The notes: a model not told the origin generated them from the letters alone. DNA of 55,098 nt from Deltaproteobacteria bacterium (GCA_026388415.1 JAPLJV010000029.1:1-55098), one strand, 5' to 3'. Numbered from the stretch's first letter, positions 35,810 to 53,102 are shown. A program made the numbers and translations.

Positions 35810-37078
35810 TCAGATGGTTGCTTCCGACTTGAATTTTGCGATTTGCTCGGCTGAATACCCCAGAATATCTCGATAGATGACTTCATTGGCCGACCCGTGG
35901 GGAAGACCGGGGAAGCGTATTTTTCCGGGACGGCCCAGCATGCGGAAGGTGACATCGGGCATTTTGAGCATGATACCGGTGGCGGGATCTTCCATCTCAA
36001 TGATGGTCTTTCTTTCCCGGTAATGCTCGTCTTTGGCAATGTCTTCCATATTCGGAATCGGGCCGGCCGTAATGCCCTCGCGACGGCAGATTGTCAGAGC
36101 TTCTTCATTGGTCATGGTCAGATACCACTGCTGGATAATGGTATTGAGTTGGAGGCGATTTTCAGGTTTGATCCGGTCCACATTCGTCTTGAAACGCGGG
36201 TCGCTGATCAGCTCCGCCCGCCCCATCGCCTTGGCCAGCGTTTCCCAGGGTTTTTGGGCGGAACAGGACATGGCAATCCATTTGCCTTCTTTGGTCTGGT
36301 AATTGTTTCTCGGCGCAGCGGCCCTCAGCTCATTGCCGATCGGCCCGGGAATCGCACCGGTCAGGGTATAACTCAGGAACTCGGGGCCCAGGTAGCCGAA
36401 CAGGGATTCATACAGGGACACATCAATGACCTGCCCACCCCGCTCGCCTCTTTTGGCCGCGATAAGCGCCAGCGAAACGGCAAATGCCAGGTGGACGCCC
36501 GTCGTAAAGTCCGCCAGCGCCATCGGAGGGCTGGTGGGACTGCCGCCCGGGTAGCCGTTCAGATACGAAAATCCGCTGAAGGCCTCGGCCAGCGTGCCGA
36601 AACCGGGCTGGGTGGCATGCGGTCCCGTCATGCCGTAACCGGAAACCTTGCCAATAACGAGGCCGGGGTTTTCCTGCAGGAGCATTTCATGGCCGAGGCC
36701 CAGCCGATCCATGACCCCCACGCGCATGTTCTCGATGAGGACATCGGATTTGCGAACCAGCTCCCGGAACAGCTTTTTCCCGTCGGCACTTTTCAGGTTG
36801 ATGGTTACGGGGAACTTATTGCGGCCGATAACCGAATAGTACGGCTCGATCCCGCTTGCTTCAATAAAGCCCCAAGTACGCAAGGCATCCGGGTCGTCGG
36901 GGTTCTCAATCTTGATGACCTCAGCACCCGCATCACCCAGGAGCGCCGCCGTATAGGGCGCAGCGATTACCGTCGAAAAATCGAGAACCCTTTTCCCTTC
37001 CAGCGGCAACCCTTCATACTGGCAAGGTTTTCTCTGCCCCTCGATAAATTTGATCAGTTCATCTTTTGATCTGACCAC
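35810..37078 (-). CDS. CaiB/BaiF family CoA-transferase
   Basis: The 422-residue protein is a class III CoA-transferase: VLDFSTVIAAPYTAALLGDAGAEVIKIE at the start, the catalytic Asp in ALADFTTG and the R-G-x-G-Q-V-I-D-V-S-L-Y-E block. These enzymes move CoA between carboxylic acids through an aspartyl-CoA thioester. It starts with GTG at 37078 (AAAGGAAA upstream). The TRAP transporter genes stand upstream on the same strand, so it probably activates the imported carboxylate. The substrate is unknown. Confidence 0.92.
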   Translation of the reverse strand: MVRSKDELIKFIEGQRKPCQYEGLPLEGKRVLDFSTVIAAPYTAALLGDAGAEVIKIENPDDPDALRTWGFIEASGIEPYYSVIGRNKFPVTINLKSADGKKLFRELVRKSDVLIENMRVGVMDRLGLGHEMLLQENPGLVIGKVSGYGMTGPHATQPGFGTLAEAFSGFSYLNGYPGGSPTSPPMALADFTTGVHLAFAVSLALIAAKRGERGGQVIDVSLYESLFGYLGPEFLSYTLTGAIPGPIGNELRAAAPRNNYQTKEGKWIAMSCSAQKPWETLAKAMGRAELISDPRFKTNVDRIKPENRLQLNTIIQQWYLTMTNEEALTICRREGITAGPIPNMEDIAKDEHYRERKTIIEMEDPATGIMLKMPDVTFRMLGRPGKIRFPGLPHGSANEVIYRDILGYSAEQIAKFKSEATI

Positions 37079-37101
37079 GGTATTTTCCTTTGCTTTGGGC
37101 T

Positions 37102-37311
37102 CTAACCGGCCTTGGGGGCCTTCTTGACCTTGAAGTCTTTTGTCAAGATCTGCCCTTCCGAGAAGAGAAACACAACACCGATCAGACAGACAATGCTGCC
37201 GGCAAACGCACAGATAATCTGGACGAATGTCGGTGGCTCAAAAATACTGATCAGGCATAACGCCGCAACTGCAACAACTATGGTAACCAGCCCACCCAGT
37301 TTTTCCAACAT
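37102..37311 (-). CDS. small two-helix membrane protein
   Basis: The 69-residue product has two hydrophobic helices (about 7-27 and 32-53) and a Lys-rich C terminus (KDFKVKKAPKAG). The ATG at 37311 has GAGGGG upstream; the longer in-frame extension is not needed. It lies between the TRAP genes and the CoA-transferase and may be an accessory subunit. No family recognised. Confidence 0.6.
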   Translation of the reverse strand: MLEKLGGLVTIVVAVAALCLISIFEPPTFVQIICAFAGSIVCLIGVVFLFSEGQILTKDFKVKKAPKAG

Positions 37312-37345
37312 AGTTAACCCCTCATTACGACTAACTTTAAGTTGA

Positions 37346-37516
37346 CTAATTGTTGTCCGGTACTTGCCCGGAGCGCACAATGACGTAGAGCATGAGACAG
37401 CCCACGGCAACCACGAGACCAAAAATAATAATTACATGAACGGGCAGCACGGTTACCAACGCCCACAGAATGAAATTACCGGCAACAGCGCCGACCACCG
37501 TCAAAAAATGTCGCAT
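37346..37516 (-). CDS. small two-helix membrane protein
   Basis: This 56-residue product (MRHFLTVVGAVAGNFILWAL...) has two membrane helices and a short polar tail. GGAGG lies 7 bases before the ATG at 37516. It precedes the other small membrane protein by about 35 bases; the two look like a pair within the TRAP-CoA-transferase operon. Confidence 0.58.
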   Translation of the reverse strand: MRHFLTVVGAVAGNFILWALVTVLPVHVIIIFGLVVAVGCLMLYVIVRSGQVPDNN

Positions 37517-37613
37517 CTTTTTTCCTCCAGACACAGGCTACAATCGCAGGGGCGACGCATACGTCGCCCTTACATTCACCTCACTACGAAATCCCGACAT
37601 GAAGCCGGCATCA

Positions 37614-39611
37614 TCATTTGTACACCAGAGACGGCACCCACAGACCGATCTGCGGGAAAAGGTAGAGCAATAATATGGCTAAACACTGGATTACCATGAA
37701 CGGCAGCATCCCGATGAAGATCTGGTTCAGCGTCACGTGCGGCGGCGCCACTCCCTTCAGGTAAAATGCAGCCATTGCCACCGGCGGCGAGAGGAAGGCC
37801 GTCTGGAGGTTCAGGGCCACAAGCAAACCGAAAAAAAGCGGATCAATGTTGAAGTGCGCCAAAAGCGGGATGAAGATCGGCATGAAGATGACGATGATCT
37901 CGGTCCACTCCAGCGGCCATCCCAGGAGAAAGATGATCACCTGCGCCAGCAGCATGAACTGGGTCGGCGTCATTTCCATGGATTTCACCCAGTTGTTGAT
38001 GATCTCCTGCCCGCCTAAGAGCGCGAAGGCCGCCGCGAAGATGCTCGAACCGATGAAGAGCCAGCAGACCATGGCCGAGGTCTTCGCGGTGAGGTAAACC
38101 GACTCCTTAACGACGGTGAAATTGAGCTGCTTGTAGGCCGCCGCCAGAACGAAACCGCCGAAGGATCCCATCGCCGCCGCTTCGGTCGGGGTGGCGAGCC
38201 CCACGACGATCGTTCCGAGGACCCCGAGAATGATCAGGGCCAGCGGGAAGAACGATCCGAGAAGCATCTTGAAGATCTCGAGCCGGGCAAAGGTGAAGAT
38301 CACATAGAAGATCACCGTCCCGGCCCCGATAATGCCGAAAGTAATCCAGAACACCAATGGCGGGGGATTGCGAGGCGGGGCAACCTGTACCGCCGGCTGC
38401 GCCGCCGGTGCCGCAGGTTTTACCTCAACAGCTGGTTTCGGAGTCTCCGCCGGGACAACAGCCTGTACTGCCTGGTTGGACTCTACCGGTGGTTCCTGCA
38501 GTCCGCCCTCCGTTGGGGGTTCTTGCAGGCCGCCTTCGGCCGGAGGTTCCTGTAGGCTACTGGCTTGCGGCTGCTGGAGGTTGCCCGTATCGGCAGACTG
38601 TTCCATAGCTGATAGCGTCTCCCCTCCCATCTCCTGGAGACCTGCTGTATCAACCAGCGAAGGAGCCGTCGTCCAAAGGTAGACTACCAGAATGATCAAC
38701 ACTGCGGCGAGCGCCGGAAGGATCGCGATAATCATATGATTAATAAGCGTCTTCATCGGAACGTCGGCGTTGCGCTTCCCCTTGATTGCACTGATAAGCC
38801 CCACCAGAACGTTGTTGCTCTTCGTCGTGCAGATCACCTCTGCGAACTTGGGCAGGAACACGCACGCGTCCTCCTCGGAGAGAGGCGGGGCGATGCTTGG
38901 TTTGAGCTTGGCGGAGATAATGATGTAGCCGAGATAGAGACCCGTCAGCATGAAGCCGGGCAAAAACGCCCCGGCGTAAAGCTGGACGACCGATACACCT
39001 GCAGTCGCGCCGTAGAGGATCAAAAGAACCGACGGTGGGATCAGGATGCCGAGGGTTCCGCCGGCTGTTACGACGCCGGCCGAGAGACGCACGCTGTATC
39101 CGGCCTTGAGCATGGCCGGAAAGGCGAGGAGGCCCATCAGCGTCACGCAGGCCCCGATGATTCCCGTGGCGGTGGCGAAGATCGCGCAGGTGATGACCGT
39201 CGCTACGGCGAGCGATCCCGGTATCCGGGAGGTAGCCAGGTGAAGGCTCTTGAAGAGCCGGCCGATCAGGTTGGCCCGTTCGACGAGGTACCCCATGAAG
39301 ACGAACAACGGAATAGAGATAAGAACGTCGTTGTTCATGACGGCGTAGGCCCGCTGCGCCACCAGATCGTACGTGTGTCCCATTGCTGTGCTCGGATTTT
39401 CGCTGTAATAGGCGAAAAAAGCAAACATTGATCCCATTCCCATGAGGGTGAAGGCGGTGGGAAAGCCGAGCATGATGGCAATTACGATCATCGCCAGCAT
39501 CAGGAGGCCGAGGTGGCCGTTGGTCCACTGGGCGAACGGCGGCATGAACCAGAGCACCCCGACCAGCACCAGGGCCATGATAGCTATTCCAAACCAAGCT
39601 TCCTTTTTCAT
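37614..39611 (-). CDS. TRAP transporter large permease (DctM type) with long internal linker
   Basis: The protein has the DctM layout of about 12 or more membrane segments, but at 665 residues it is about 200 longer than usual. A hydrophilic, Pro-rich linker at about 317-418 splits it and carries three copies of LQEPPxEGG/S (353-376) followed by an Ala/Pro/Val-rich run. Conserved DctM parts flank it (PLFVFMGYLVERAN, PPSVLLILYG; GLATPTEAAAMG, PPVAMAAFYLKGV). It imports a carboxylate with Na+ together with DctQ and DctP. The ATG at 39611 overlaps the dctQ stop; 42 upstream in-frame codons are shadows. Confidence 0.88.
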   Translation of the reverse strand: MKKEAWFGIAIMALVLVGVLWFMPPFAQWTNGHLGLLMLAMIVIAIMLGFPTAFTLMGMGSMFAFFAYYSENPSTAMGHTYDLVAQRAYAVMNNDVLISIPLFVFMGYLVERANLIGRLFKSLHLATSRIPGSLAVATVITCAIFATATGIIGACVTLMGLLAFPAMLKAGYSVRLSAGVVTAGGTLGILIPPSVLLILYGATAGVSVVQLYAGAFLPGFMLTGLYLGYIIISAKLKPSIAPPLSEEDACVFLPKFAEVICTTKSNNVLVGLISAIKGKRNADVPMKTLINHMIIAILPALAAVLIILVVYLWTTAPSLVDTAGLQEMGGETLSAMEQSADTGNLQQPQASSLQEPPAEGGLQEPPTEGGLQEPPVESNQAVQAVVPAETPKPAVEVKPAAPAAQPAVQVAPPRNPPPLVFWITFGIIGAGTVIFYVIFTFARLEIFKMLLGSFFPLALIILGVLGTIVVGLATPTEAAAMGSFGGFVLAAAYKQLNFTVVKESVYLTAKTSAMVCWLFIGSSIFAAAFALLGGQEIINNWVKSMEMTPTQFMLLAQVIIFLLGWPLEWTEIIVIFMPIFIPLLAHFNIDPLFFGLLVALNLQTAFLSPPVAMAAFYLKGVAPPHVTLNQIFIGMLPFMVIQCLAILLLYLFPQIGLWVPSLVYK

Positions 39612-40234
39612 TTGCCGCCCCCTTTCTCGTGCGTCACGTACGCATCGAGCTTCGCGATATCCTCGTCGGTGACATGCACCGTTGCCTTCAGTTTCTCCAC
39701 GTCCACCTCCTCCACGTCGTGGATGCGCGAGGGCCACTGGCCGGCCTTAAGGCACAAGACACAGCGGACCATCTCGACGATCCCCTGCACGAGGATAAAT
39801 GCCCCGGCAACGGGGATGATCGTCTTGAAGTGGTAGAGCGGGGGACCGTCGGCGGTGATGCCCGAATGCTCGAAGATCGCCCAGGACTCGCCGGCATAGG
39901 TGTAGCCGGCCCAGCAGAGCGCCGTTATCCCCGGCAGGAAGAAGAGGATGTAGAGCGTCAGGTCGAGGGCGGCCTGCACACGCGGTGGGAAGAAACCGTA
40001 GAGGACGTCGCCGCGGACCATGCCGTTTTTCGAGAGGGTGTAGGCGCCCGCCATCATGAACAGGGTCCCGTACATCTGGAGCATCATATCGAAGGCCCAG
40101 GCATGGGGGGCGTCCATAGCGTAGCGGACGAACACCTCGTAGGTGATCAGAAAGGTGAGCGATACGATCAGCCAGGAGAACGTCTGGCCCGCAAACGTGC
40201 TGATTTTGTCAATGGTGATCAGTATTTTCTGCAT
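39608..40234 (-). CDS. TRAP transporter small permease (DctQ type)
   Basis: The 208-residue protein has four membrane helices with the DctQ features FLITYEVFVRY and GMVRGDVLYG. It ends in a charged cytoplasmic tail (VEEVDVEKLKATVHVTDEDIAKLD) longer than usual. It joins DctM in the membrane and overlaps its gene by 4 bases. Confidence 0.88.
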   Translation of the reverse strand: MQKILITIDKISTFAGQTFSWLIVSLTFLITYEVFVRYAMDAPHAWAFDMMLQMYGTLFMMAGAYTLSKNGMVRGDVLYGFFPPRVQAALDLTLYILFFLPGITALCWAGYTYAGESWAIFEHSGITADGPPLYHFKTIIPVAGAFILVQGIVEMVRCVLCLKAGQWPSRIHDVEEVDVEKLKATVHVTDEDIAKLDAYVTHEKGGGK

Positions 40235-40314
40235 AGTGAATCCTGTCCTGAAAAAGGGCCATCCGGGCGCTGTCTGCGCCGGGATGGCCGGTCACTGATG
40301 TCGTAAACCCGTTA

Positions 40315-41502
40315 CTATTTCTTCGGTTCTGCCTTTGCGGGTGCGGCCTTTGCGGGAGCGGCTTTCTTGCCGAAGTAATGGTTATAGGCCATGCGCCGGT
40401 TGACGTTGTAATCCATATCCCAAGCTACTGTGCGCTTCGCGAACGCAAACTGCGATGCGAGGATCTCCTTGAACATGGGGTTATCAACCGACTTCTTCGC
40501 CGTGACCTTATCGTAGGCGATGAGCTGCGCTTGCAGGATAGCGTCGGGGGTCTTGTAGAACTTGACCTTGTCCTGGGTCTGCATACCGATGTAATCCTTC
40601 GAGTAGCGGTCTATGGACTTCCATCTCATGTCGGCCGAGGACGCCTCGACGGCGCCCTCGATGAGCGCCCTCATCTTGGCCGGCAGCCCATCGAACTTGG
40701 TCTTGTTGAACAGAATCTCGAAATCCTCCGCGTTCTGGTGGTAGCTCTGGAGCATGCAGACCTTGGAGACGTCGGGAAAGCCGAGCAGGCGGTCGGAGGA
40801 GGCATTGTTGAACTCCGCCCCTTCCAGCAGGCCGCGGTCCATCGCCGGCACGATCTCGCCGCCGGGCAGCGCGTTCACCGATGCACCCATGCCGTTGAAC
40901 ACGTCAACGGAAAGCCCTACGGTGCGGTACTTCATGCCCTTCAGGTCCTCAACCTTGGTGATGGGTTTCTTGAACCATCCGAGCGGCTGCGTAAACATCG
41001 GCCCGTAGGGAAACGATACCACGTTCGCGCCGATGGACGCGTAGAGCTTCGCCAGCAGTTCCTTGCCGCCACCGTACTTGTGCCAGGCCAGCAGCATGTC
41101 GGCGTCCATGCCGAAGCCGGGACCCGAGCCCCACAAGGCCAGTGCATTCTGTTTGCCGTAATGGTAAACCATCACGCCGTGGCCGCCATCTAACGTCCCC
41201 TTGGACACGGCATCGAGTAGGCCGAAGGCCGGCACCACGGAGCCTGCGGGCAGCACCTCGATCTTGAGATCACCACCCGTCATGTCGTTGACCTTCTTGG
41301 CGAAGTCCAGAGCGTACTCGTGAAAGATGTCCTTGGTTGGCCAGGTACTCTGCCAGCGCATCGTAATCGGCCCCTCCGCTTTGAGAATCGCCGGGAAACC
41401 CAGCGTTGCGGCCCCGGCCGTTGCCACGGCGGCCCCGGTCAGGAATTTGCGGCGTGATACGCCTGTCTTCTTGGTGTCCGTGCTCGTTTCTTTCGTTGTC
41501 AT
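40315..41502 (-). CDS. TRAP transporter periplasmic solute-binding protein (DctP/TakP type), Tat-exported
   Basis: The N terminus holds a twin-arginine signal (SRRKFLTGAAVATAGAATLG) ending near AILKAEG. The mature part matches the DctP family: MRWQSTWP, the Arg of the substrate site in GMKYRTVGLSVDVFNGMG, and GAEFNNASSDRLLG. The pattern is closest to the TakP group that binds 2-oxo or branched carboxylates; the ligand cannot be specified. The last 17 residues are an Ala/Pro/Lys repeat (KKAAPAKAAPAKAEPKK). A GGGAGGG ribosome binding site precedes the ATG. Confidence 0.9.
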   Translation of the reverse strand: MTTKETSTDTKKTGVSRRKFLTGAAVATAGAATLGFPAILKAEGPITMRWQSTWPTKDIFHEYALDFAKKVNDMTGGDLKIEVLPAGSVVPAFGLLDAVSKGTLDGGHGVMVYHYGKQNALALWGSGPGFGMDADMLLAWHKYGGGKELLAKLYASIGANVVSFPYGPMFTQPLGWFKKPITKVEDLKGMKYRTVGLSVDVFNGMGASVNALPGGEIVPAMDRGLLEGAEFNNASSDRLLGFPDVSKVCMLQSYHQNAEDFEILFNKTKFDGLPAKMRALIEGAVEASSADMRWKSIDRYSKDYIGMQTQDKVKFYKTPDAILQAQLIAYDKVTAKKSVDNPMFKEILASQFAFAKRTVAWDMDYNVNRRMAYNHYFGKKAAPAKAAPAKAEPKK

Positions 41503-41733: not shown

Positions 41734-43059
41734 ATGGACAAATCACAGCCTGTCTTAAGCCTGATGGAAGCCTTGGGGGGGATCAAGAGCCGGCAATTTA
41801 CTTCCGAGGAGTACACCCAGTCGCTCCTGCACCGGATCGCCCTGCTGGATGGAAAAATCCAGGCCTGGACCTGGCTTAAGCCGGAGGAGGCGCTCCAGGC
41901 CGCCCGCCGTTCCGACAGTTATCTGCACGCCGGTGGCGCACCCGGCTCCCTCCAGGGCCTGCCCATAGGCGTAAAAGACATCTTCGCCACCGCCGGCGTG
42001 CCTACGGAAATGGGTTCTCCCGCCTTTGCGGGCCACGTTCCCAAAGGATCGGCCAGAGTGATTGAAAGGCTTGAGACACAGGGAGCCTTCGTTATGGGCA
42101 AGACCGTAACCACCGAATGCGCCTTCTTTTTCCCAGGAAAAACCCGTAATCCCTGGAATCCACTGCACACGCCGGGCGGGTCATCGAGCGGCTCCGCCGC
42201 CGCCGTCGCGGCTGGTTTTGTCCCGGCCGCCCTGGGTACGCAAACCAACGGTTCCGTCATCCGGCCCGCCGCCTTTTGCGGGGTTGTCGGCTTTAAACCG
42301 ACCCAGGGCGCCATTCCCATCGAGGGCGCCCTGACCTTCAGCCACACCCTGGATCAGGCAGGCATCTTCACCCGTCAGGTGGAGGATGCTGCCTGGCTGT
42401 CGGCCTCCCTGGCCGGTGAAAGCGCGGGATTATTGCCGGCAATTTGCGCCCGCTCCACGCCTCCCCGCCTGGCGGCAGTGAAAACCCCGGTATGGGAACA
42501 GGCAGAGGATTATGCCCGGCAGCATTTCATGGATAATATCGCTACATTAAGAAAGGGCGGCGCCCAGGTGGACGAAGTGGAATTACCCGAGATATTCAGC
42601 CTCGCCCAACAGACGATCAGAACCATCATGGCGGCCGAGGCGGCCTTTAACCTGGGAGAACTGCAGCTCAAGCAGGCACCTCTTCTCAGCCCAGTCTTGA
42701 CGGATTTTCTTGCCGAAGGAAGGAACGTAGGGGCGGCGGTCTATTTGCAGGCCCTGAAGATACGCCAAAACCTGCAAAACGAACTGGAGCGCTTCCTGGC
42801 CAAATACGATGCCGCTATCACGCCGGCCGCCACTGGCGAGGCGCCGGCAACGCTCGAACAGACGGGCAATCCCGCATTCTGCTCCATCTGGAGCCTCTGC
42901 GGCGTCCCGGCCATTACCATCCCGGCAGGTTTTGGTCCGCGTGGATTGCCCCTGGGATTGCAGATCGTGGGCCCGCAGGGGAAGGATGACCAGGTCTTGT
43001 CTGCGGCCCATTGGTGTGAAGGGTTGCTTTCCTTTCCTTCCTGGGAGGAAAAACAATGA
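41734..43059 (+). CDS. amidase signature family hydrolase
   Basis: The 441-residue protein has the Ser-cisSer-Lys triad of amidase signature enzymes: Lys in PIGVKDIF, cis-Ser in GGSSSGSAAAVAAG and the nucleophile Ser in TQTNGSVIRPAAFCG. It hydrolyses an amide, possibly of an imported compound. The usual GTDTGGSIR is GTQTNGSVIR here. It is divergent from the TRAP genes and overlaps the next gene by 4 bases. The ribosome binding site is weak. Confidence 0.9.
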   Translation: MDKSQPVLSLMEALGGIKSRQFTSEEYTQSLLHRIALLDGKIQAWTWLKPEEALQAARRSDSYLHAGGAPGSLQGLPIGVKDIFATAGVPTEMGSPAFAGHVPKGSARVIERLETQGAFVMGKTVTTECAFFFPGKTRNPWNPLHTPGGSSSGSAAAVAAGFVPAALGTQTNGSVIRPAAFCGVVGFKPTQGAIPIEGALTFSHTLDQAGIFTRQVEDAAWLSASLAGESAGLLPAICARSTPPRLAAVKTPVWEQAEDYARQHFMDNIATLRKGGAQVDEVELPEIFSLAQQTIRTIMAAEAAFNLGELQLKQAPLLSPVLTDFLAEGRNVGAAVYLQALKIRQNLQNELERFLAKYDAAITPAATGEAPATLEQTGNPAFCSIWSLCGVPAITIPAGFGPRGLPLGLQIVGPQGKDDQVLSAAHWCEGLLSFPSWEEKQ

Positions 43060-43352
43060 AACCGGAGGAATTTGCTGAGGCAATTATAAAATCACGCGAA
43101 CTGGTGGAGTCGGGCAAGTACACCGCCTGCCCTTGTGTGCAGACACGATGCGAGTGGCATGGCAAATGTTTTGAGTGCGTGATGATCCACCGGACAAAGA
43201 AGCATCATTTGCCGGAGTGCCTCCATCCTCTTTTTAAGGAGAAGATCAGGGGACTTGCCAAGATGGTTGAAGCGGGGATTACGGGAGAAGGTCCGACAGA
43301 TGCTCACTGGGACTATCTGCACCGGATCGCACCACCCAAAAAGAAAGCTTGA
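43056..43352 (+). CDS. small cysteine/histidine-rich protein
   Basis: The 98-residue protein has a dense metal-binding pattern: C-P-C-x5-C-x4-HGK-C-x2-C, then HR and HHLPEC. It probably holds Zn or Fe, but I know no family. Its ATG overlaps the amidase stop (ATGA) and GGAGG lies within the amidase 3' end, so translation is coupled. It may be an accessory or regulator of the amidase or of the following transporter. Confidence 0.7.
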   Translation: MKPEEFAEAIIKSRELVESGKYTACPCVQTRCEWHGKCFECVMIHRTKKHHLPECLHPLFKEKIRGLAKMVEAGITGEGPTDAHWDYLHRIAPPKKKA

Positions 43353-44627: not shown

Positions 44628-44656
44628 TTGACAGGTACCGTATAATACCTTATCCT
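44628..44656 (+). promoter_or_regulatory. promoter of the AOR cluster
   Basis: TTGACA is followed after 17 bases by TATCCT, 38 bases before the GTG start. A small palindrome (GGTA...TACC) fills the spacer. Confidence 0.6.
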
Positions 44657-44693: not shown

Positions 44694-46874
44694 GTGAAAT
44701 ACACAAAATCAACGCTTGTACATGGATATAACAACAGGATACTTACGATAGACTTGGGAACGGAAACCTTGCTTACTCCCGGGCTTGATCCCCGGACCAG
44801 AGATTATTTTATCGGCGGCCGGGGCCTTGGTTTATACCTCCTGCATGAGAGAATTAATTTAACAACATCTCCCCATGATCCGGAAAATCCGTTGATACTA
44901 TCGCCTGGCCCCCTGGGCGGAATTCCGCAATTTCCCGGGACCAGCAAATGCATGGCTATTTCCCTGTCGCCGCTTACAGGTATTCCGGGAGTTTCAAATT
45001 TCGGAGGACATTTTGGCGCGTACCTGAAGTACGCCGGTTTTGATGCCCTGGTATTAACCGGAAAATCCAGAAATGATGTTATGATCGTTATTGACGCTAT
45101 GCGGGGCGATATCTCCATCATGGCCGCGCCCACCATAGATTTTGTCTTCGACCTGGAAAAAGAAATCGCCGACACGTTTAGCCACCAGGGATACGACCGG
45201 AAGAACATCGTTTTCCTGACGACGGGCATCGGCGCAACCAAGACAACTTATGGCTGTATCAACAGCCATTATTATGATCCCACCAAATCCATGGACGAAA
45301 TCAGAGGATTCTACCGGGTAAAACAGGCAGGCAGGACTGGTCTCGGCACCGTCATGATTGATAAGAAAGTCAAGGCCGTCGTCATCATTGCCGAATTTCC
45401 CAAAGGTGAAAACCCTTATGGGGCGGCTGATTGGGACAAGGTGAAAAAATCGGGTCTGAGGCTCAGTAAGGTCGTCAGGGAAGAAGACCCGAAATCATTG
45501 CAAATGTCCAGCAAAGGGAGCGCCGGACTGATAGATTTCATGAACAGGGAAGAATACCAGTCTCTGCCGGTAAATAACTACCAGTTGGGATCTGATTCGC
45601 GAGCCGAAAAAATCAGCGGCAAATATTACGCGGAATCTCTCTTCGATCACCGGGGCATGGACGGTTGTTTCCCGGGGTGCAATCTGAGATGCACCAAAGG
45701 GGGGTGCGTGACCTTGACAACGGGCAGAGACAAAGACCGCCGGGTCTGGGTGGATGGCCCCGAATATGAAACGGCCGCCGGTTTCGGTTCCAATCTGGGG
45801 ATGTGGAATCCCAATTTCATTATGGAAGCCAACTGGCATTGCGATAACTACGGGATAGATACCATTACGACCGCGGTTATTATCGCCTTCTTGATGGAGT
45901 GCTGCCAGAGAGGCTATCTGACCAAAGCGGATACTGATGGATTGGAACTTGAATGGGGCAACGAACAGGCGGTATTGACCCTCATTCATCGGATTGCGCT
46001 TTCGGAAACAGAATTAGCCAAAGAAGCCGGCAGGGGAATGTTGCCTCTGCTGGACTGGATTTCAGCCAAATATAAAGGCAGAACTGGCGTATCTCCCCGG
46101 GAAGAGCTTGAGAAGTTTGCCATGCAGACCAAGGGTCTCCCGTTCTCCCTTTACCGGACTCACCGATCATTATCCATGCAGGGTTCCTATGCCGCCGCCA
46201 GCGATATCGGCGCCCACCATTCCGCCGCCTGGTTGATCAAAATAGATCTCATCGGTGGATTCCCCACCTTGCGGGACAAGGCCAGGGCATTGATCTCCTA
46301 TCCGCGAGTCCGGCTCGGCAATGATAATCTGGGGCTGTGCAAACTTCCCTGGGTGGATGTGTTCAATCCCGATTCGGGGAAGATGAAGAATACGGATATT
46401 TATATTAATCCAGCCTCTCAGGAAATTTACGCTGATTTCTACAACGGCATGCTGGGCACAAATATGACTTGGCAAGACATTTTCGCGCAGACAGATCATG
46501 ACATAAATTTACAACGGGTTATGAATGCCATGACCTACGGAACAGACACGGGAAAATACGACTGGATCCCGGATCGGGCGATCGGGCCAATTGACGATGA
46601 TCTGTATGATATTGAAAAAGCTTATCATGACGAGGAGATCGGCAAAATTCTCGGGAAGTCCATAGCCGAAGTGCAGGGCATGGAGACAGGGGCAAAACGA
46701 GCAATCCTGATGAATCATCGTAAAGAGCAATTGACTGAATTGATCCGGATTTATTACGATGAAAGAGGCTGGAGCAGTTCCGGATTACCGACAATTGCTA
46801 CCCTGAAACGCATCGGCCTGTGGGAATTCCTCACCGAGGAAACAAGAAACAGAATTTCTGAAATATCCGGTTGA
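44694..46874 (+). CDS. aldehyde:ferredoxin oxidoreductase family tungsten enzyme
   Basis: The 726-residue protein has the AOR fold: N-terminal domain with LTIDLGTETL and FIGGRGLGLYLL, then VDGPEYETAAGFGSN (355-368) and DNYGIDTI for pterin/metal binding. The iron-sulfur Cys are C325, C329, C333 and probably C549 (NDNLGLC); the first spacing is x3 rather than the usual x2, and C338 follows. AOR enzymes interconvert aldehydes or acids with ferredoxin electrons at a tungsto-bispterin site. The length exceeds classic AOR (about 600), so a subfamily with a different substrate is likely. It starts with GTG at 44694 (AAAGGAACC). Confidence 0.9.
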   Translation: MKYTKSTLVHGYNNRILTIDLGTETLLTPGLDPRTRDYFIGGRGLGLYLLHERINLTTSPHDPENPLILSPGPLGGIPQFPGTSKCMAISLSPLTGIPGVSNFGGHFGAYLKYAGFDALVLTGKSRNDVMIVIDAMRGDISIMAAPTIDFVFDLEKEIADTFSHQGYDRKNIVFLTTGIGATKTTYGCINSHYYDPTKSMDEIRGFYRVKQAGRTGLGTVMIDKKVKAVVIIAEFPKGENPYGAADWDKVKKSGLRLSKVVREEDPKSLQMSSKGSAGLIDFMNREEYQSLPVNNYQLGSDSRAEKISGKYYAESLFDHRGMDGCFPGCNLRCTKGGCVTLTTGRDKDRRVWVDGPEYETAAGFGSNLGMWNPNFIMEANWHCDNYGIDTITTAVIIAFLMECCQRGYLTKADTDGLELEWGNEQAVLTLIHRIALSETELAKEAGRGMLPLLDWISAKYKGRTGVSPREELEKFAMQTKGLPFSLYRTHRSLSMQGSYAAASDIGAHHSAAWLIKIDLIGGFPTLRDKARALISYPRVRLGNDNLGLCKLPWVDVFNPDSGKMKNTDIYINPASQEIYADFYNGMLGTNMTWQDIFAQTDHDINLQRVMNAMTYGTDTGKYDWIPDRAIGPIDDDLYDIEKAYHDEEIGKILGKSIAEVQGMETGAKRAILMNHRKEQLTELIRIYYDERGWSSSGLPTIATLKRIGLWEFLTEETRNRISEISG

Positions 46875-46898
46875 TATTCTACCTCGATCTTCAGCATT

Positions 46899-46927
46899 GT
46901 TACGTATAGTACCTACCTATACGTAAC
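46899..46927. repeat. perfect 11-bp hairpin between the AOR and DUF362 genes
   Basis: GTTACGTATAG and CTATACGTAAC enclose 7 bases. A T6 run begins 9 bases later, so it may work as a weak terminator that lowers expression of the downstream genes, or as an operator. Confidence 0.6.
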
Positions 46928-46958
46928 CGCGGATGTTTTTTAATAAGGAGACAGACAT

Positions 46959-48713
46959 ATGTCAAAGATAGCGCTCAGGAAGAGCCGGCTGTCGTCCGCC
47001 TTGTGGAGCATATTTCGCGATTATTACGTAAACATACCCGGTGTTGATCCGTCTTATACGCATGCCCGATGGCAGCAATGGAAAGAAAGCGCGGGCGTCA
47101 TCACGTATCTCGCCGGAAGCAACGGCAAGGTTGTGGGATGGATCGTTTATAACCCGGCTACGAGCACCGTCGAGGAGATCCTCGTAAACGGCGAGGAGCA
47201 ACAGGCGAAAATCCTTTTCCGGATGATTGACGAGCTCATCGCCGTGCAAAACCTTGTGTCCGCCGAGGTACTGGCGTCAGACCAGCAGAGATACCGGTGG
47301 TTGGTGGAATACGGCTTTCGTCCTACCCGATCCTTTACCGCGAACGACGCTTCTTTCCTCAAAATGGATCTGAGTACGGCGGTGCTTTTTAAAAGGCTTA
47401 AAGGACGGAAACCGGCAAAGGACTGCCGGAAAAAGGAAAAGGTAGCTATTGAGAAAGTCCCTGCATCCCAGACCTATGCAGAGATCAAAGAAAGCATTGA
47501 AAATCTCGTCAACAAACTGGGCGGCGTGCGCAAGTTTGTTAAAGCGGGCCAGACGGTCGTGATCAAACCGAATCTGGTGGCCGACCACGGGATGGTGAAT
47601 GGTGTGTACCGAGGGGGTGTGGTCACTGATATACGGATCGTGCGAGCTCTCGTTGAGCTCCTGCTGCCTATCGCCGGGAAAGTCATCATCGCGGAAGGCT
47701 CCTCAATCAACCGTAGCGCAACTATGAAGATGTTTCTCCTGTACGGTTATGACAAGCTGATTGATCTCGATCCCCACAAGGTGAGCCTCGTTGACTTGAA
47801 CGCGGACGCACTGATCGAAAAGACGGTGCCGGGCGCGAAACGGATGACGTCGAGAAAGGTTCCGGTCACCCTCAACAGGGCCGATGTGATCATCAACGTG
47901 CCAGTCATGAAAAACCATTTTGCGGCCATCACCTCGCTCGCGATTAAGAGTCTCCAGGGAGCGATGCCGCCTCTTGAGAAATATATGAGTCATTTCTTTG
48001 GGCTCTGGCAGAACCTGGTCAACATTCACCTTCTCGTCAAACCAAAGCTGCACATTATTGATGGCCTCGTCGGGCAGGAAGATTTCGGCCCGGTCTCAGG
48101 CACACCAAAGCCAATGAACCTGTTGATCGGAGGGGTGAACCCGGTAGCGGTGGATGCGGTGACCATGAGGATCATGGGGCTCGATCCGCTAACGTCGCCT
48201 CCCGTGCGGCTGGCCTATATGCAGGGCCTGGGACCGATTGACCCGGAGAAAATAAACATCATTGGGCCAGCGATCGCGGCAGTGGCGAGCCCGTTCAAGC
48301 AGCCGGAAATCAATTTGACGAGCGGCAGGGACATTACCATTCACGCTGAAAATGCCTGTCCCGGCTGCGCGGGATACCTCCACTTCGCCGTGGCTAAACT
48401 GCGACGGCCTGATCCGAAAGACCCATCGAGGCTTCTCATAGACCGGCCCTTTGATCGCAAGGTGCATATCTTTCTCGGTCCCACCATTGACCGCGACATC
48501 AATCCGGGCGAAACGAACATCTTCCTGGGTATCTGTCAGCAACACCATGCGGAAACGGGCGCCCATCTGCCGGGCTGTCCTCCTCATGCAGGGGTGCTGC
48601 TCAAGGGCATGTACCAATTATTTCCTGATGTCGAACGGCCCAAATACGCAGACGAGGCCGAGGAGATAAAGCTGGAAAGAATGCTCAAGGAAACCCAGGC
48701 TTCTCTTCATTGA
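46959..48713 (+). CDS. DUF362 protein with N-terminal acetyltransferase-like domain
   Basis: The first 140 residues look like a GNAT-type domain (GVITYLAGSNGKVVGWIVYNPATSTVEEI... VEYGFRPTR). From about 160 to 470 a DUF362 domain follows (VVIKPNLVADHG, ADVIINVPVMKNH, NPVAVDAVTMRIMGLDP). The C-terminal part has Cys/His clusters (ENACPGCAGY; LGICQQHHAETGAHLPGCPPHAG) instead of the usual ferredoxin domain. DUF362 proteins often belong to redox or corrinoid systems, but no reaction is known to me. An AAGGAGA site precedes the ATG. It lies between AOR and the radical-SAM-like gene. Confidence 0.82.
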   Translation: MSKIALRKSRLSSALWSIFRDYYVNIPGVDPSYTHARWQQWKESAGVITYLAGSNGKVVGWIVYNPATSTVEEILVNGEEQQAKILFRMIDELIAVQNLVSAEVLASDQQRYRWLVEYGFRPTRSFTANDASFLKMDLSTAVLFKRLKGRKPAKDCRKKEKVAIEKVPASQTYAEIKESIENLVNKLGGVRKFVKAGQTVVIKPNLVADHGMVNGVYRGGVVTDIRIVRALVELLLPIAGKVIIAEGSSINRSATMKMFLLYGYDKLIDLDPHKVSLVDLNADALIEKTVPGAKRMTSRKVPVTLNRADVIINVPVMKNHFAAITSLAIKSLQGAMPPLEKYMSHFFGLWQNLVNIHLLVKPKLHIIDGLVGQEDFGPVSGTPKPMNLLIGGVNPVAVDAVTMRIMGLDPLTSPPVRLAYMQGLGPIDPEKINIIGPAIAAVASPFKQPEINLTSGRDITIHAENACPGCAGYLHFAVAKLRRPDPKDPSRLLIDRPFDRKVHIFLGPTIDRDINPGETNIFLGICQQHHAETGAHLPGCPPHAGVLLKGMYQLFPDVERPKYADEAEEIKLERMLKETQASLH

Positions 48714-48839
48714 GGGATCCTCTAAACTGCTATCAGCGCCAGCTCTCGCCGGTGCAAAACGTTGCCCTTACATAAAATAAAGTATTCCAATGCGTTATCA
48801 ATTATATTGTTTTCATATAAACTATGATACGAGTGAGCC

Positions 48840-50276
48840 ATGTACGAGGGGGGCGTTGCCAACGGACAGACAGTTTTTCATCACATAAATTATGATTCAT
48901 ACGGTAAAAAAACCATGATTCTGATTACCCACCATACCGGCGAGGCCCATGGCATCCTGGGCGTTCAGGCGGCAGGCACGCATCTGACGACGAATTTGCA
49001 TATACCTTCGCTGGTGGTCGGCATTGAAAGACAGTTTTCCCAGGAACTGCTGTTAAGATTTCTTGACGATTATTATGCAGGCCAGGAAAAAATTATCGGA
49101 TTCTCCCACCTATGCGGCCGTAAAGACCTCATGGAATTAATCGGCGCTGTCCATGAAAGGGGGTTTTTCACGATCCTCGGCGGCCCGCAGGCTGAAAAAG
49201 ATTATTACGGAGAGGGCGATTCAGAGCGCTACCCAATGCGATTCAAGGGTTTGCACAAAGCAATAGACCTGGCAATTCAGGGGCCTGTTGACCGCCTGAA
49301 GCGGGAGCAGCTATCTTCAAAAGCAGGTTGCCTCAATTTCCCCTGGGGCAAAGATATCGTTCTCAATGTTGACTGGACAAACATTTATACCTTTGCGGAT
49401 ACACTGAAAAGGCTGGCAATAAGAACGGCGCAGGTACTGAATTCCATCGGTTGTCCCTATGCCAACAAGAAAAACACGGTCAGATTACCCCTGCCCGACA
49501 CTATCAAAGGGAAATCATTAGATATTGACGTTGAATCATACGGCTGTATCTTTTGTGATGTCTCAAGAGATAAAGGCTTTCACGGACATATAGACAAAAG
49601 CGTAGTACTCTCGCAAATCAGGGCCTTACCGGAAGAAAACGAAAGAAAGATTCCCTTTGAGCTGATAGACGAGTATCCGATCAGCTCTTTGCAATGGATC
49701 ATTGACGACGCTGCCCAGGCAGGCATCAAGTTATCCCGGATTGATCTGGTATGCCGGATTGATGATATAAATACTCATCCTGAACTTCTCGAGGCGGTTT
49801 TGAAAGCTGCCCAAGAAAAGCAGATAGCGATCAAGTTCGCATCAATCGGGTTTGAATCTTTCAGCGACAGGATTCTCCGGCTTCTCAATAAGGGGATAAC
49901 GGTCAATGATATTGTGCGGTGCGTGGGGATCCTGCGGCAATTTAAAGAGAGATTCGGCCACACTATCCTGTACAGAAGTGATGAAGGCGCAAATCACGGG
50001 TTTATCCATCCGACCCCCTGGGACGACAGCGAAACAATATCTGAAAACAACAGGAACATAGCCATCCATCGCTTTTTTGATGATATATTGCCACCGCACA
50101 GCGTTCCGTTGATAATCCACCATGCTTCTTATCTCGGGGATTGGATAAGACAGGTTGAATCCGAGCTGCAGGTGGGATTTAAAAGAGAGGGCACATGGAT
50201 CGAGTGGTGGAGCCCGCCGGAAAATAATCAAACAATCTATTTGCCGGAACATACCGGGAGCACCAGGGAGTTGTAG
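48840..50276 (+). CDS. B12-binding/radical-SAM-like protein with incomplete Cys motif
   Basis: Residues 25-130 look like a cobalamin-binding Rossmann region (MILITHHTGEAHGILGVQAA ... ILGGPQA, but no DxHxxG). The middle resembles radical-SAM proteins (ESYGCIFCDVSRDKG, IDLVCRIDDINTHPELLEAV, KFASIGFESFSDRILRLLNKG). The cluster motif is CxxC only (C236, C239); the first Cys of CxxxCxxC is Glu232. It may be an inactive or differently liganded relative. It follows the DUF362 gene by about 125 bases. The start is not certain: the ATG at 48915 has no ribosome binding site either. Confidence 0.72.
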   Translation: MYEGGVANGQTVFHHINYDSYGKKTMILITHHTGEAHGILGVQAAGTHLTTNLHIPSLVVGIERQFSQELLLRFLDDYYAGQEKIIGFSHLCGRKDLMELIGAVHERGFFTILGGPQAEKDYYGEGDSERYPMRFKGLHKAIDLAIQGPVDRLKREQLSSKAGCLNFPWGKDIVLNVDWTNIYTFADTLKRLAIRTAQVLNSIGCPYANKKNTVRLPLPDTIKGKSLDIDVESYGCIFCDVSRDKGFHGHIDKSVVLSQIRALPEENERKIPFELIDEYPISSLQWIIDDAAQAGIKLSRIDLVCRIDDINTHPELLEAVLKAAQEKQIAIKFASIGFESFSDRILRLLNKGITVNDIVRCVGILRQFKERFGHTILYRSDEGANHGFIHPTPWDDSETISENNRNIAIHRFFDDILPPHSVPLIIHHASYLGDWIRQVESELQVGFKREGTWIEWWSPPENNQTIYLPEHTGSTREL

Positions 50277-50420: not shown

Positions 50421-50774
50421 TTATTTAGCTGCTGGCGCTGCTGGCGCTGGTGCTGCCGGTGCTGCCTTCTTGTCTGCCGCTGCCTTCTTGTCGGCTGCCT
50501 TCTTTTCGGCTTTTGCCTTCTTTTCGGCTTTTGCCTTCTTGTCGGCTGCCTTCTTTTCTGCCGCTGCCTTCTTGTCTGCTGCCTTCTTTTCGGCCGTTGC
50601 TTTCACATCCGCCGCCTTCTCTGCTGCCGGAGCCTTCTCTACTGCCGCTGCCGGAGCCTTCTCCGCTGCCGCTGCCGGAGCCTTCTTTTCTGCCTTGGGA
50701 GCCGTATCCGCTGCAAAAGCCACTGTCGAGAACATGAAAACCAAAGCCACTGCCAATACCATAAAACGTTTCAT
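50421..50774 (-). CDS. exported Ala/Lys-rich repeat protein
   Basis: The 117-residue protein has a clear signal peptide (MKRFMVLAVALVFMFSTVAFA, probably cut after AFA). The mature part is almost only Ala, Lys, Glu, Asp and Pro: first APAAAxEK repeats, then AEKKAADKKA repeats, ending in an Ala/Pro run. It should be a long, strongly basic helix or disordered chain in the periplasm. It resembles histone-H1-like or TolA-like spacer sequences only in composition. A GAAGGAGG ribosome binding site and a terminator support it as a real, separate gene. Confidence 0.85.
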   Translation of the reverse strand: MKRFMVLAVALVFMFSTVAFAADTAPKAEKKAPAAAAEKAPAAAVEKAPAAEKAADVKATAEKKAADKKAAAEKKAADKKAKAEKKAKAEKKAADKKAAADKKAAPAAPAPAAPAAK

Positions 50775-50971: not shown

Positions 50972-51916
50972 CTATGTTGGGAACATCTTCCGGTCAACAA
51001 TCACAGGCAGCGCGTGGGGCAGGATATCAATGACTACCGGCAACCAGCCCGGCTGCTCGCCATCCGCATCAATACGAATATCCTGCGTTGAGGTGGCTTC
51101 AATGTGCCTGGCGGTCAATGTTATTACCTTTCTTATCTCCTTGATACGACCATTGTAAAATTTGGCAATATTAAGGAGCATTTCCGGCAGTGACAAATCG
51201 CCGATTACCGTCACGTGCAGGAGACCATCGTCAGCCAGCGCCTCGGGAGCCACGCACATGCCGCCGCCATGGTAGCGTCCATTAGCCACGACAATGTTCC
51301 GGACGACGAATTCCTCCGCCTGACCATCACAGTGCAGGCAAATGCGCCTCGCACCGTGACGCAGGAGGCAGACCAAAGTTGAACGCAGAAAAGACAGGAA
51401 GGCGCCACCGGCTTTGCTGTGGGAGTTGACATGGAAGGCTACCTCGCCGCCGGTCCCAAAACTGACGACATTATGAAAGTAATGGACTTCAGGAGCGCCT
51501 TCGTGATTGGAAAATTGAACCCGCCCCAGATCGAGGGAGCGCGTGTATCCCTCTTGTATAATCTGCAGCGCCCTGCGGGGAGAGGGTGATTTGAGGATTA
51601 TCCTCGCAAAATCACATCCCGTGCCGAAGGGCACAACTCCGAGGCGGGCTTCACGGCAGACCGTAGGGGGTATCTCCATAAAACCATTAATGATCTCATT
51701 TAACGTACCGTCCCCGCCCACGCCGATAATCAAACCGGCGCCGGCGGCTAAATGCTCGCGGGTAAGCAGGGTGGCGTCGCCTGCCCGTTCGGTGAAGCAG
51801 GCCGTAAATGAGCCTAACTGTTCTTCCACCAGCCTGCTCATGGCACGCCATTTCGCCGCCGCCGCACCGTTGCCGGCCCGGGGATTGACAATAAAGACTG
51901 TTTTTTGACTCGGCAA
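50972..51916 (-). CDS. diacylglycerol kinase-like lipid kinase (YegS/BmrU family)
   Basis: The 314-residue protein has the catalytic domain NPRAGNGAAAAKW, the nucleotide loop GVGGDGTLNEIING and PFGTGCDFARIIL (usually GTGNDFAR). The C-terminal beta domain follows (VANGRYHGGGMCVAPEALADDG). It phosphorylates diacylglycerol or a related lipid at the membrane. It starts with TTG at 51916, with GAGAGG 8 bases upstream. It follows the DUF2600 gene by 22 bases, so both probably act on lipids. Confidence 0.88.
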   Translation of the reverse strand: MPSQKTVFIVNPRAGNGAAAAKWRAMSRLVEEQLGSFTACFTERAGDATLLTREHLAAGAGLIIGVGGDGTLNEIINGFMEIPPTVCREARLGVVPFGTGCDFARIILKSPSPRRALQIIQEGYTRSLDLGRVQFSNHEGAPEVHYFHNVVSFGTGGEVAFHVNSHSKAGGAFLSFLRSTLVCLLRHGARRICLHCDGQAEEFVVRNIVVANGRYHGGGMCVAPEALADDGLLHVTVIGDLSLPEMLLNIAKFYNGRIKEIRKVITLTARHIEATSTQDIRIDADGEQPGWLPVVIDILPHALPVIVDRKMFPT

Positions 51917-51938
51917 AATCTGTGCCTCTCAACACTAT

Positions 51939-53027
51939 TTAAGCAGTCCGGCGGGCCGATTGCGGATCACTGGCCGCCATCCGCCGGTACAACCAGCAGA
52001 TAAGATAGAAAAACACGCCCACGCTGCCTCCCAGAAAAACCAGAGTTCTGGCGGCCATTCTGACTTCCTTCTGCCGGTAAACTTTTTTATCGGCGCAATA
52101 GATCCCCAGCATTCCCTGGTTGATGAGACAATGGAAGCGGGCGTAGGGCAAGGCGGCGATGCTCAAGTTGGCCTGCTGATAGAAATGGGACAGGCGGGTC
52201 ACCATTTCCCGATAATCCCGATAATAGGAGCAAAAATTCAGGTCGCCGCCGAGGCGGTCTTCATCCTGGTCTATAAAGTAATCCAAAAGGATGTGCAACC
52301 CCTGCACCCAGGGGAAGCAGGCATCTCTAATATTGCGCACCAGCAAGGCGGTACAATCCTCATGACAGGCATGGGCCACGAGACAGAATATTCCGACGGT
52401 GGAACCGGAACAGGCGGCAAATTCATACCAGGCCATGGGCGGCAAAGCCTGCTTTTGTTCGTCAAACCAGGCCTGCATCAGGGGCACGCGCTCCTCACGG
52501 CGGACATGCTTGTACACCTGTAAAGCGCAGTAGTAGTCTGCCAGTTCGTGGAGATGAGGAGCGATCAGTTTATAGCCCGGCAAAGCGGCCAGCACTTCCT
52601 GACAGGTCAGGACGAGGGCAGCCAGATATCCGCCATCATCCTGTTCAGCCCGACAGCGATAATAATCGTCCAATCTTGCTCCCGGCGTCAGGGCGTGCTT
52701 CATGGAGGTATGCAAAATGCGGAAGTCATTGGGGTCCAGAGAGGTGCTGCGATCGCACAGGTTATCCAGATAATCGCTGATGGTTTGATAGGCGACGATA
52801 AACCGGATGGCCTCCCGATAGCGATCACCGGCCAGGAGACCGTAAATGCTGCCGCCCTCGCAGTGAAAGGTCTTGCCGGCGATGCTGGCCAGGGCCTGTT
52901 TTTGCAGCTCCGGATCGGGAATAATCCGGGCCTGATCAATCCAGTGCTGCAAATGCTCATGCACCTGGGGACGCACCTGCAAAAATATCTTCGGCGTCAT
53001 GGTAAAGATGTTGGTCGGAGGCGGCAC
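51939..53027 (-). CDS. DUF2600 family protein (YtpB / tetraprenyl-beta-curcumene synthase-like)
   Basis: The 362-residue protein matches the YtpB family: IPDPELQKQALASIAGKTFHCEGGSIY, then TISDYLDNLCDRS and DYFIDQDEDRLGGDLNFCSYY. The Asp/Glu-rich blocks replace the DDxxD motif of classic class I terpene synthases. The Bacillus enzyme cyclises tetraprenyl diphosphate; the substrate here is unknown. A C-terminal membrane helix (LVFLGGSVGVFFYLICWLY) is added. The GTG at 53027 with AAAGGAGAA upstream fits better than the ATG at 53000, because relatives keep the preceding Pro-rich residues. Confidence 0.85.
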   Translation of the reverse strand: MPPPTNIFTMTPKIFLQVRPQVHEHLQHWIDQARIIPDPELQKQALASIAGKTFHCEGGSIYGLLAGDRYREAIRFIVAYQTISDYLDNLCDRSTSLDPNDFRILHTSMKHALTPGARLDDYYRCRAEQDDGGYLAALVLTCQEVLAALPGYKLIAPHLHELADYYCALQVYKHVRREERVPLMQAWFDEQKQALPPMAWYEFAACSGSTVGIFCLVAHACHEDCTALLVRNIRDACFPWVQGLHILLDYFIDQDEDRLGGDLNFCSYYRDYREMVTRLSHFYQQANLSIAALPYARFHCLINQGMLGIYCADKKVYRQKEVRMAARTLVFLGGSVGVFFYLICWLYRRMAASDPQSARRTA

Positions 53028-53102
53028 CCTGATTCTCCTTTGCCCGGGGAAAAATCGCGTTTTTTCATTATCATAAGCCGTCGTATTGCACAACCTTTAA
53101 GT

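Follow-up and report, generated by a model that had tools for sequence, protein, structure and literature searches.

Radical-SAM and GNAT-DUF362 protein families linked by genomic context to tungsten enzymes of anaerobic aromatic degradation

We analyzed a 55,098-nucleotide stretch of DNA from a Deltaproteobacteria bacterium (GCA_026388415.1, JAPLJV010000029.1:1-55098; hereafter the window), in which three large genes at positions 44694-50276 encode a tungsten-type oxidoreductase of the aldehyde oxidoreductase (AOR) family, here called AORw, a GNAT-DUF362 fusion protein and a protein resembling radical S-adenosylmethionine (SAM) enzymes. The original prediction had read the three genes as a possible redox module that might activate or reduce an unusual carboxylic acid. 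Our results favor a different reading, to which we assign a probability of about 0.6: the radical-SAM and fusion families partner tungsten enzymes of anaerobic aromatic degradation and do not form one new three-step pathway with AORw. The link of both genes to such enzymes is well supported by genomic context, and a module of exactly AORw, the fusion and the radical-SAM gene is not supported. The locus may accordingly be described as a stand-alone AORw beside two genes with an accessory part in anaerobic aromatic-acid catabolism; their likely partners, a second AOR (AORc5, about 26% identical to AORw) and the bam-encoded class II benzoyl-CoA reductase, are encoded on other contigs of the same genome.

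Co-occurrence was assessed in 395 genomes of one phylum, with presence scored by fixed thresholds and the genomes themselves incomplete. The radical-SAM gene is found in 23 of these genomes, 21 of which also carry BamB (6.1 expected, p 2.6e-11). Of 24 radical-SAM genomes (the related genome G395 included), 22 have an AORc5 orthologue (at least 70% identity), as do 7 of 56 genomes that lack the radical-SAM gene but carry BamB or the fusion (nearly all of them BamB-positive) and 1 of 80 genomes with neither BamB nor the radical-SAM gene. Taken as a single comparison, AORc5 accompanies the radical-SAM gene in 22 of 24 genomes and is found in 8 of 136 sampled genomes lacking it (Fisher p 2.4e-18). 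The two genes lie near each other in 11 genomes, seven of which share the order radical-SAM gene, zinc ribbon, AORc5, with a four-cluster ferredoxin subunit coming next in most. Benzoyl-CoA-pathway genes of the Oah (TIGR03200) and/or Had (TIGR03201) type share the stretch in four of these 11 genomes, one of which (G374) has its radical-SAM gene divided by a contig break, with a part on either side. Three genomes have PaaK-type coenzyme A (CoA) ligases beside the radical-SAM gene, and another three have them beside AORc5. Where AORc5 is unlinked, it is usually found with the ferredoxin subunit and often with IclR, LutB, CCG, zinc-ribbon and ThiS-like LAGG genes, and in two genomes AORc5 and its small subunit directly precede bamBC. 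The window's genome carries AORc5 on contig 17. A small conserved zinc-ribbon-like protein (STAESLR.TR.YG..RC.NP.C.GR) is encoded just upstream of AORc5, for example at L044:10634-10897 and L040:11035-11331.

The fusion gene points to a second tungsten enzyme, class II benzoyl-CoA reductase. Full-length fusions, 57-68% identical to the window protein, occur in 14 of the 395 genomes including the window's own, and 12 of the 14 also encode BamB (p 4e-6, kinship ignored). Five genomes have the fusion gene beside bam genes. In one family, three genomes show the order GNAT-DUF362, IclR regulator, bamB, bamC, two of them extending through bamD to bamG, and the BamB encoded in this arrangement scores 776 bits against PDB 4z3w. 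The fusion abuts bam electron-transfer genes in G380, and a single contig of G097 carries, in order, IclR-bamBCDE, bamFGH, GNAT-DUF362, the radical-SAM gene and ThiF/MoaD-like genes. The fusion and the radical-SAM gene are thus adjacent both in the window and in G097; they occur together in seven genomes (0.8 expected), and in G224 GNAT-DUF362, AORc5 and the radical-SAM gene fall within 20 kb on one contig. The bam genes of the window's genome form two clusters, both on contig 58, and none lies within the window. These clusters (L142, L143) are arranged back to back and encode two BamB paralogues that are about 63% identical.

Several observations weigh against this reading. Most BamB genomes carry neither the fusion nor the radical-SAM gene, and G395, a genome of the same family as the window's, has no fusion. 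Eight sampled AORc5 genomes lack the radical-SAM gene, one of them (G293) retaining a remnant only; since AORc5 persists in all eight, the radical-SAM gene is not essential for it. The p values ignore kinship and are inflated by descent, the radical-SAM genomes coming from eight families. Distances between radical-SAM proteins correlate with those between AORc5 proteins overall (r 0.56), and congruence of the two trees between families is unsupported (r 0.05). The G293 remnant (G293:C58:7420-8005; L157, L159, L161) consists of N- and C-terminal pieces only, and AORc5 is intact in that genome.

The features of the locus are as follows, with positions counted from the first nucleotide of the window:
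44628..44656, + strand: promoter-like site TTGACA-N17-TATCCT, 37 bp before the AORw start, a weak site from a consensus scan.
44694..46874, + strand: AORw gene, 726 amino acids with a GTG start, AFOR_N and AFOR_C domains; tungsten-type, single-subunit, Cx3Cx3C subfamily.
45666..45692, + strand: codons of the AORw cluster motif CFPGCNLRC, residues 325-333; the C325, C329 and C333 columns are invariant in the alignment.
46959..48713, + strand: GNAT-DUF362 fusion gene, 584 amino acids, with the C-terminal Cys/His motifs C467xxC470, C526 and C540PPH.
48915..50276, + strand: radical-SAM-like gene, 453 amino acids from M26, with a possible Rossmann/B12-like part at the N-terminus and the split motif Cx30Cx2C.
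49452..49556, + strand: codons of the radical-SAM split motif, C180, 30 residues, then C211-I-F-C214.

The radical-SAM-like protein had been described as having only a CxxC, which proved wrong. A third invariant Cys lies 29-31 residues upstream of the CxxC in every one of the 24 homologues whose sequence covers the motif; it sits in QVL..[IV]GC, ahead of an invariant GCxFCD, giving the pattern Cx29-31Cx2C. The canonical CX3CX2C cluster motif is not matched and three invariant Cys are present. The sequence flanking the two halves (GCPY, GCxFC) resembles that of an ordinary radical-SAM motif with a long insertion, so the earlier description was incomplete: with the upstream Cys included, the halves together look like a radical-SAM motif. 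Because a long loop splits their cysteine motif, proteins of this family look degenerate in motif searches. The window protein falls just under the cut-off for PF04055 (Radical_SAM; 3.4e-6, 27.9 bits against a cut-off of 29.5 bits), which is matched by 21 of 23 homologues (best 7.6e-10); it reaches the cut-off of no other Pfam model either. The closest NCBIfam models describe cobalamin-type radical-SAM enzymes, and every such match is far under its cut-off. A PDB profile search with the radical-SAM alignment returned nothing significant, offering for an N-terminal B12-binding domain only a weak match, to 4q37 (E 0.26), and an AlphaFold model from three sequences was unusable (predicted local distance difference test, pLDDT, 42). 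A scan of genome contigs with a single query sequence found only two loci. The open reading frame from 48840 encodes 478 amino acids; the gene probably starts at M26 (48915), since homologues begin at the equivalent Met.

The fusion protein, predicted as a DUF362 fusion with Cys/His clusters, agrees with that description in its DUF362 part and its C-terminal Cys/His motifs. DUF362 (PF04015) is matched by all 15 fusion sequences (1.5e-36 for the window protein), among which four Cys are invariant, in C467xxC470, C526 and C540PPH. The N-terminal GNAT part is less clear: the window protein matches only weakly (E 0.075), and three of the 15 orthologues match, the best at 1.2e-5. Profile searches with GNAT-DUF362 gave only weak matches, to GNAT proteins (0.081, 0.15) and to the PSST subunit of complex I (about 0.2-0.9). 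A single-sequence AlphaFold model had a pLDDT of 38 and was, like that of the radical-SAM protein, unusable.

What the two proteins do can be proposed from these features. The three cysteines of the radical-SAM protein (C180, C211 and C214) would make up a single SAM-cleaving [4Fe-4S] site, a long loop separating the first from the second in a QueE-like but larger arrangement. We hold the following steps, taken jointly, more tentatively. The N-terminal domain of the radical-SAM protein may resemble cobalamin-binding domains, and the protein may modify a tungsten enzyme or its pterin cofactor; GNAT-DUF362, with its four invariant Cys, might give comparable support to benzoyl-CoA reductase; and AORw could oxidize an aldehyde, or reduce its acid, using ferredoxin. 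The radical-SAM protein as a helper or maturation factor of a tungsten enzyme is an equally tentative proposal. Such a role would fit the pairing of the gene with one tungsten enzyme even when unlinked to it, and the presence nearby of ThiS/ThiF-like genes, assigned to pterin cofactor processing (PMC13328260, PMC6365974). Less probable still is a stricter version, in which the radical-SAM protein would be a dedicated modifier of AOR-family tungsten enzymes, or of their pterin cofactor, in anaerobic aromatic degraders, its SAM-cleaving cluster being held by the motif split by about 30 residues, and GNAT-DUF362 would serve class II benzoyl-CoA reductase likewise.

Alternatively, the radical-SAM protein may not be a helper at all; it could instead catalyze a catabolic or biosynthetic step on a small metabolite, aromatic or CoA-linked, of the pathway that includes AORc5. 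Such a role would fit the genes around it (oah/had/dch, acyl-CoA dehydrogenase, PaaK-type ligases) and the cobalamin-type radical-SAM enzymes described by its nearest NCBIfam models, which include enzymes acting on small molecules and lipids as well as on proteins. However, the gene lies away from AORc5 in eleven genomes, and the downstream neighbors in family f31 (a radical-SAM protein of the SPL-like kind, an isomerase-like protein and an aminotransferase) also speak against it. We consider a small-molecule role somewhat unlikely.

The gene-neighborhood search for the three families, which the original prediction had proposed as a check, did not recover the trio with AORw elsewhere in the sampled phylum: the exact set was not found outside the window among the 395 genomes. 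Close AORw orthologues (67-72% identity) are present in 11 other genomes, all of which lack the radical-SAM gene and a full-length fusion. AORw shares four genomes with the radical-SAM gene (2.7 expected) and three with the fusion (1.7 expected), neither being significant, and no conserved neighbors of AORw orthologues were found in the compared neighborhoods. The exact trio is therefore peculiar to the window in this sample. Of the proposed redox module, the three-gene set is left without support; what stands is that the radical-SAM and fusion genes associate with other AOR-family tungsten enzymes (AORc5, BamB) and with aromatic-acid catabolism.

These results could also mean that the three genes are mere neighbors, a stand-alone AOR beside two separately acquired genes. 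AORw is unassociated with the other two and its orthologues have no conserved neighbors, a 201-bp gap containing an AT-rich stretch precedes the radical-SAM gene, and in the related G395 the radical-SAM gene lies elsewhere (L055) with no fusion in the genome. Yet all three genes run in the same direction, and the fusion and the radical-SAM gene are adjacent again in G097 and co-occur beyond chance, so that we regard simple juxtaposition of all three as rather unlikely. One new pathway for an unusual carboxylic acid, made of all three genes, is improbable: the co-directional order, the AOR-type enzyme and two genes tied to aromatic-acid catabolism are in keeping with it, but the phylum as sampled yielded the trio with AORw nowhere else, and genomes with a close AORw orthologue lack the other two genes. 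What survives of the carboxylic-acid idea is the link of the radical-SAM and fusion genes to the catabolism of aromatic (carboxylic) acids.

AORw itself, predicted as a tungsten-type oxidoreductase with altered Cys spacing, fits that description in sequence. It matches AFOR_N (1.2e-44) and AFOR_C (5.8e-79) far above cut-offs. Its cluster reads DG-C-FPG-C-NLR-C, that is Cx3Cx3C, compared with Cx2Cx3C in the other AOR and BamB sequences examined. The longer spacing is found in all 20 AORw members, whether close relatives (about 70% identity) or remote ones (35-40%), and is therefore a subfamily trait and not an error. Sequencing error was rejected as the source of the odd spacings in both AORw and the radical-SAM protein, since the spacings are common to all relatives. 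A distal fourth Cys (GLCKLPW) is also kept in all 20 members, the four invariant Cys corresponding to a [4Fe-4S] set. The protein retains the GPEYET segment with a catalytic-type Glu, a GAHH segment and the GLC motif, and the family profile matches aldehyde oxidoreductases best in the PDB (9g7j, 1.9e-81; 1aor, 5.9e-77). We rejected identification of AORw as BamB: BamB was the weakest of nine PDB matches (157.6 bits), and AORw aligns with aldehyde-type enzymes across the GPEYET region. By these sequence features, AORw is probably a stand-alone aldehyde enzyme.

Open reading frame calls bear out three large plus-strand genes (44694-46874, 46959-48713, 48840-50276). The gap from AORw to the fusion is 84 bp and that from the fusion to the radical-SAM gene, taken from M26, is the 201 bp noted above. 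The suggestion that all three follow one promoter holds as far as a TTGACA-N17-TATCCT site does precede AORw, although similar sites are frequent in the region (17 found by consensus scan against 8.7 expected in shuffles). None of the three proteins reaches the cut-off of any NCBIfam model. Upstream of AORw on the same strand are genes for an amidase, a small Cys-rich protein and an MFS transporter. The Cys-rich protein (43056-43349, + strand; 98 amino acids) overlaps the end of the amidase gene and has a weak likeness to DUF6485. Divergent from the amidase-MFS-AOR genes, 35813-41502 (- strand) carries TRAP-type transporter genes (DctP, DctM) and a family III CoA-transferase. Downstream, both on the - strand, are a low-complexity protein of Ala/Lys repeats whose start resembles a signal peptide (50421-50774) and a DUF2600 protein (E 6e-143) adjoining a YegS-type lipid kinase (50972-53093).

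Searches of open-licence papers, pairing radical SAM with benzoyl-CoA and DUF362 with GNAT, gave no description of either family, and the papers and family libraries searched name no radical-SAM or DUF362 partner of aromatic-ring-reducing tungsten enzymes. The assembly of these enzymes is poorly known, and two conserved families that track with them provide concrete genes to study. If the split motif binds the SAM cluster, the known range of radical-SAM motifs would be widened.

The closest parallel to the split motif is QueE (CX14CX2C; PMC4389238), in which a loop likewise widens the space between the first and second Cys; the loop is about twice as long in the radical-SAM protein, and no relation between the two families was seen. 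Class B cobalamin-binding radical-SAM enzymes (TIGR04014, BchE, HpnJ, ArsL) provide the nearest NCBIfam models, and the radical-SAM protein has in common with them an N-terminal GGPQA motif and a radical-SAM core. Their motif is CX3CX2C, however, compared with Cx29-31Cx2C here, and the matches are far under the curated cut-offs. The fusion genes are best compared with the operons for class II benzoyl-CoA reductase of the Geobacter metallireducens type (PDB 4z3w), which they adjoin in the five genomes described, the window itself being without a bam gene.

Tungsten oxidoreductases have been sorted into 92 clades, and their cofactor and cluster ligands are described as highly conserved (PMC13328260). 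AORw resembles the class I enzymes (PfAOR; PMC13328260) in being a single large subunit with AFOR domains, and differs from class I and class II enzymes in a cluster motif that is one residue longer in all 20 members. Unlike BamB, which is described with a tungsten-ligating Cys in the corresponding region (PMC12096430), AORw has the aldehyde-type Glu region GPEYET. AORc5 is like the class II enzymes (PMC13328260) in having a four-cluster ferredoxin subunit, and a ThiS-like gene (WorX) often accompanies it. Similarly, the AOR of Aromatoleum aromaticum (aorABCDE; PMC6365974) combines large and four-cluster subunits with MoaD-like genes, as found around AORc5. A gene for the flavin adenine dinucleotide subunit of that enzyme was not identified beside AORc5, where LutB and CCG-type proteins are encoded instead in several genomes, and the radical-SAM gene is an addition at the AORc5 loci.

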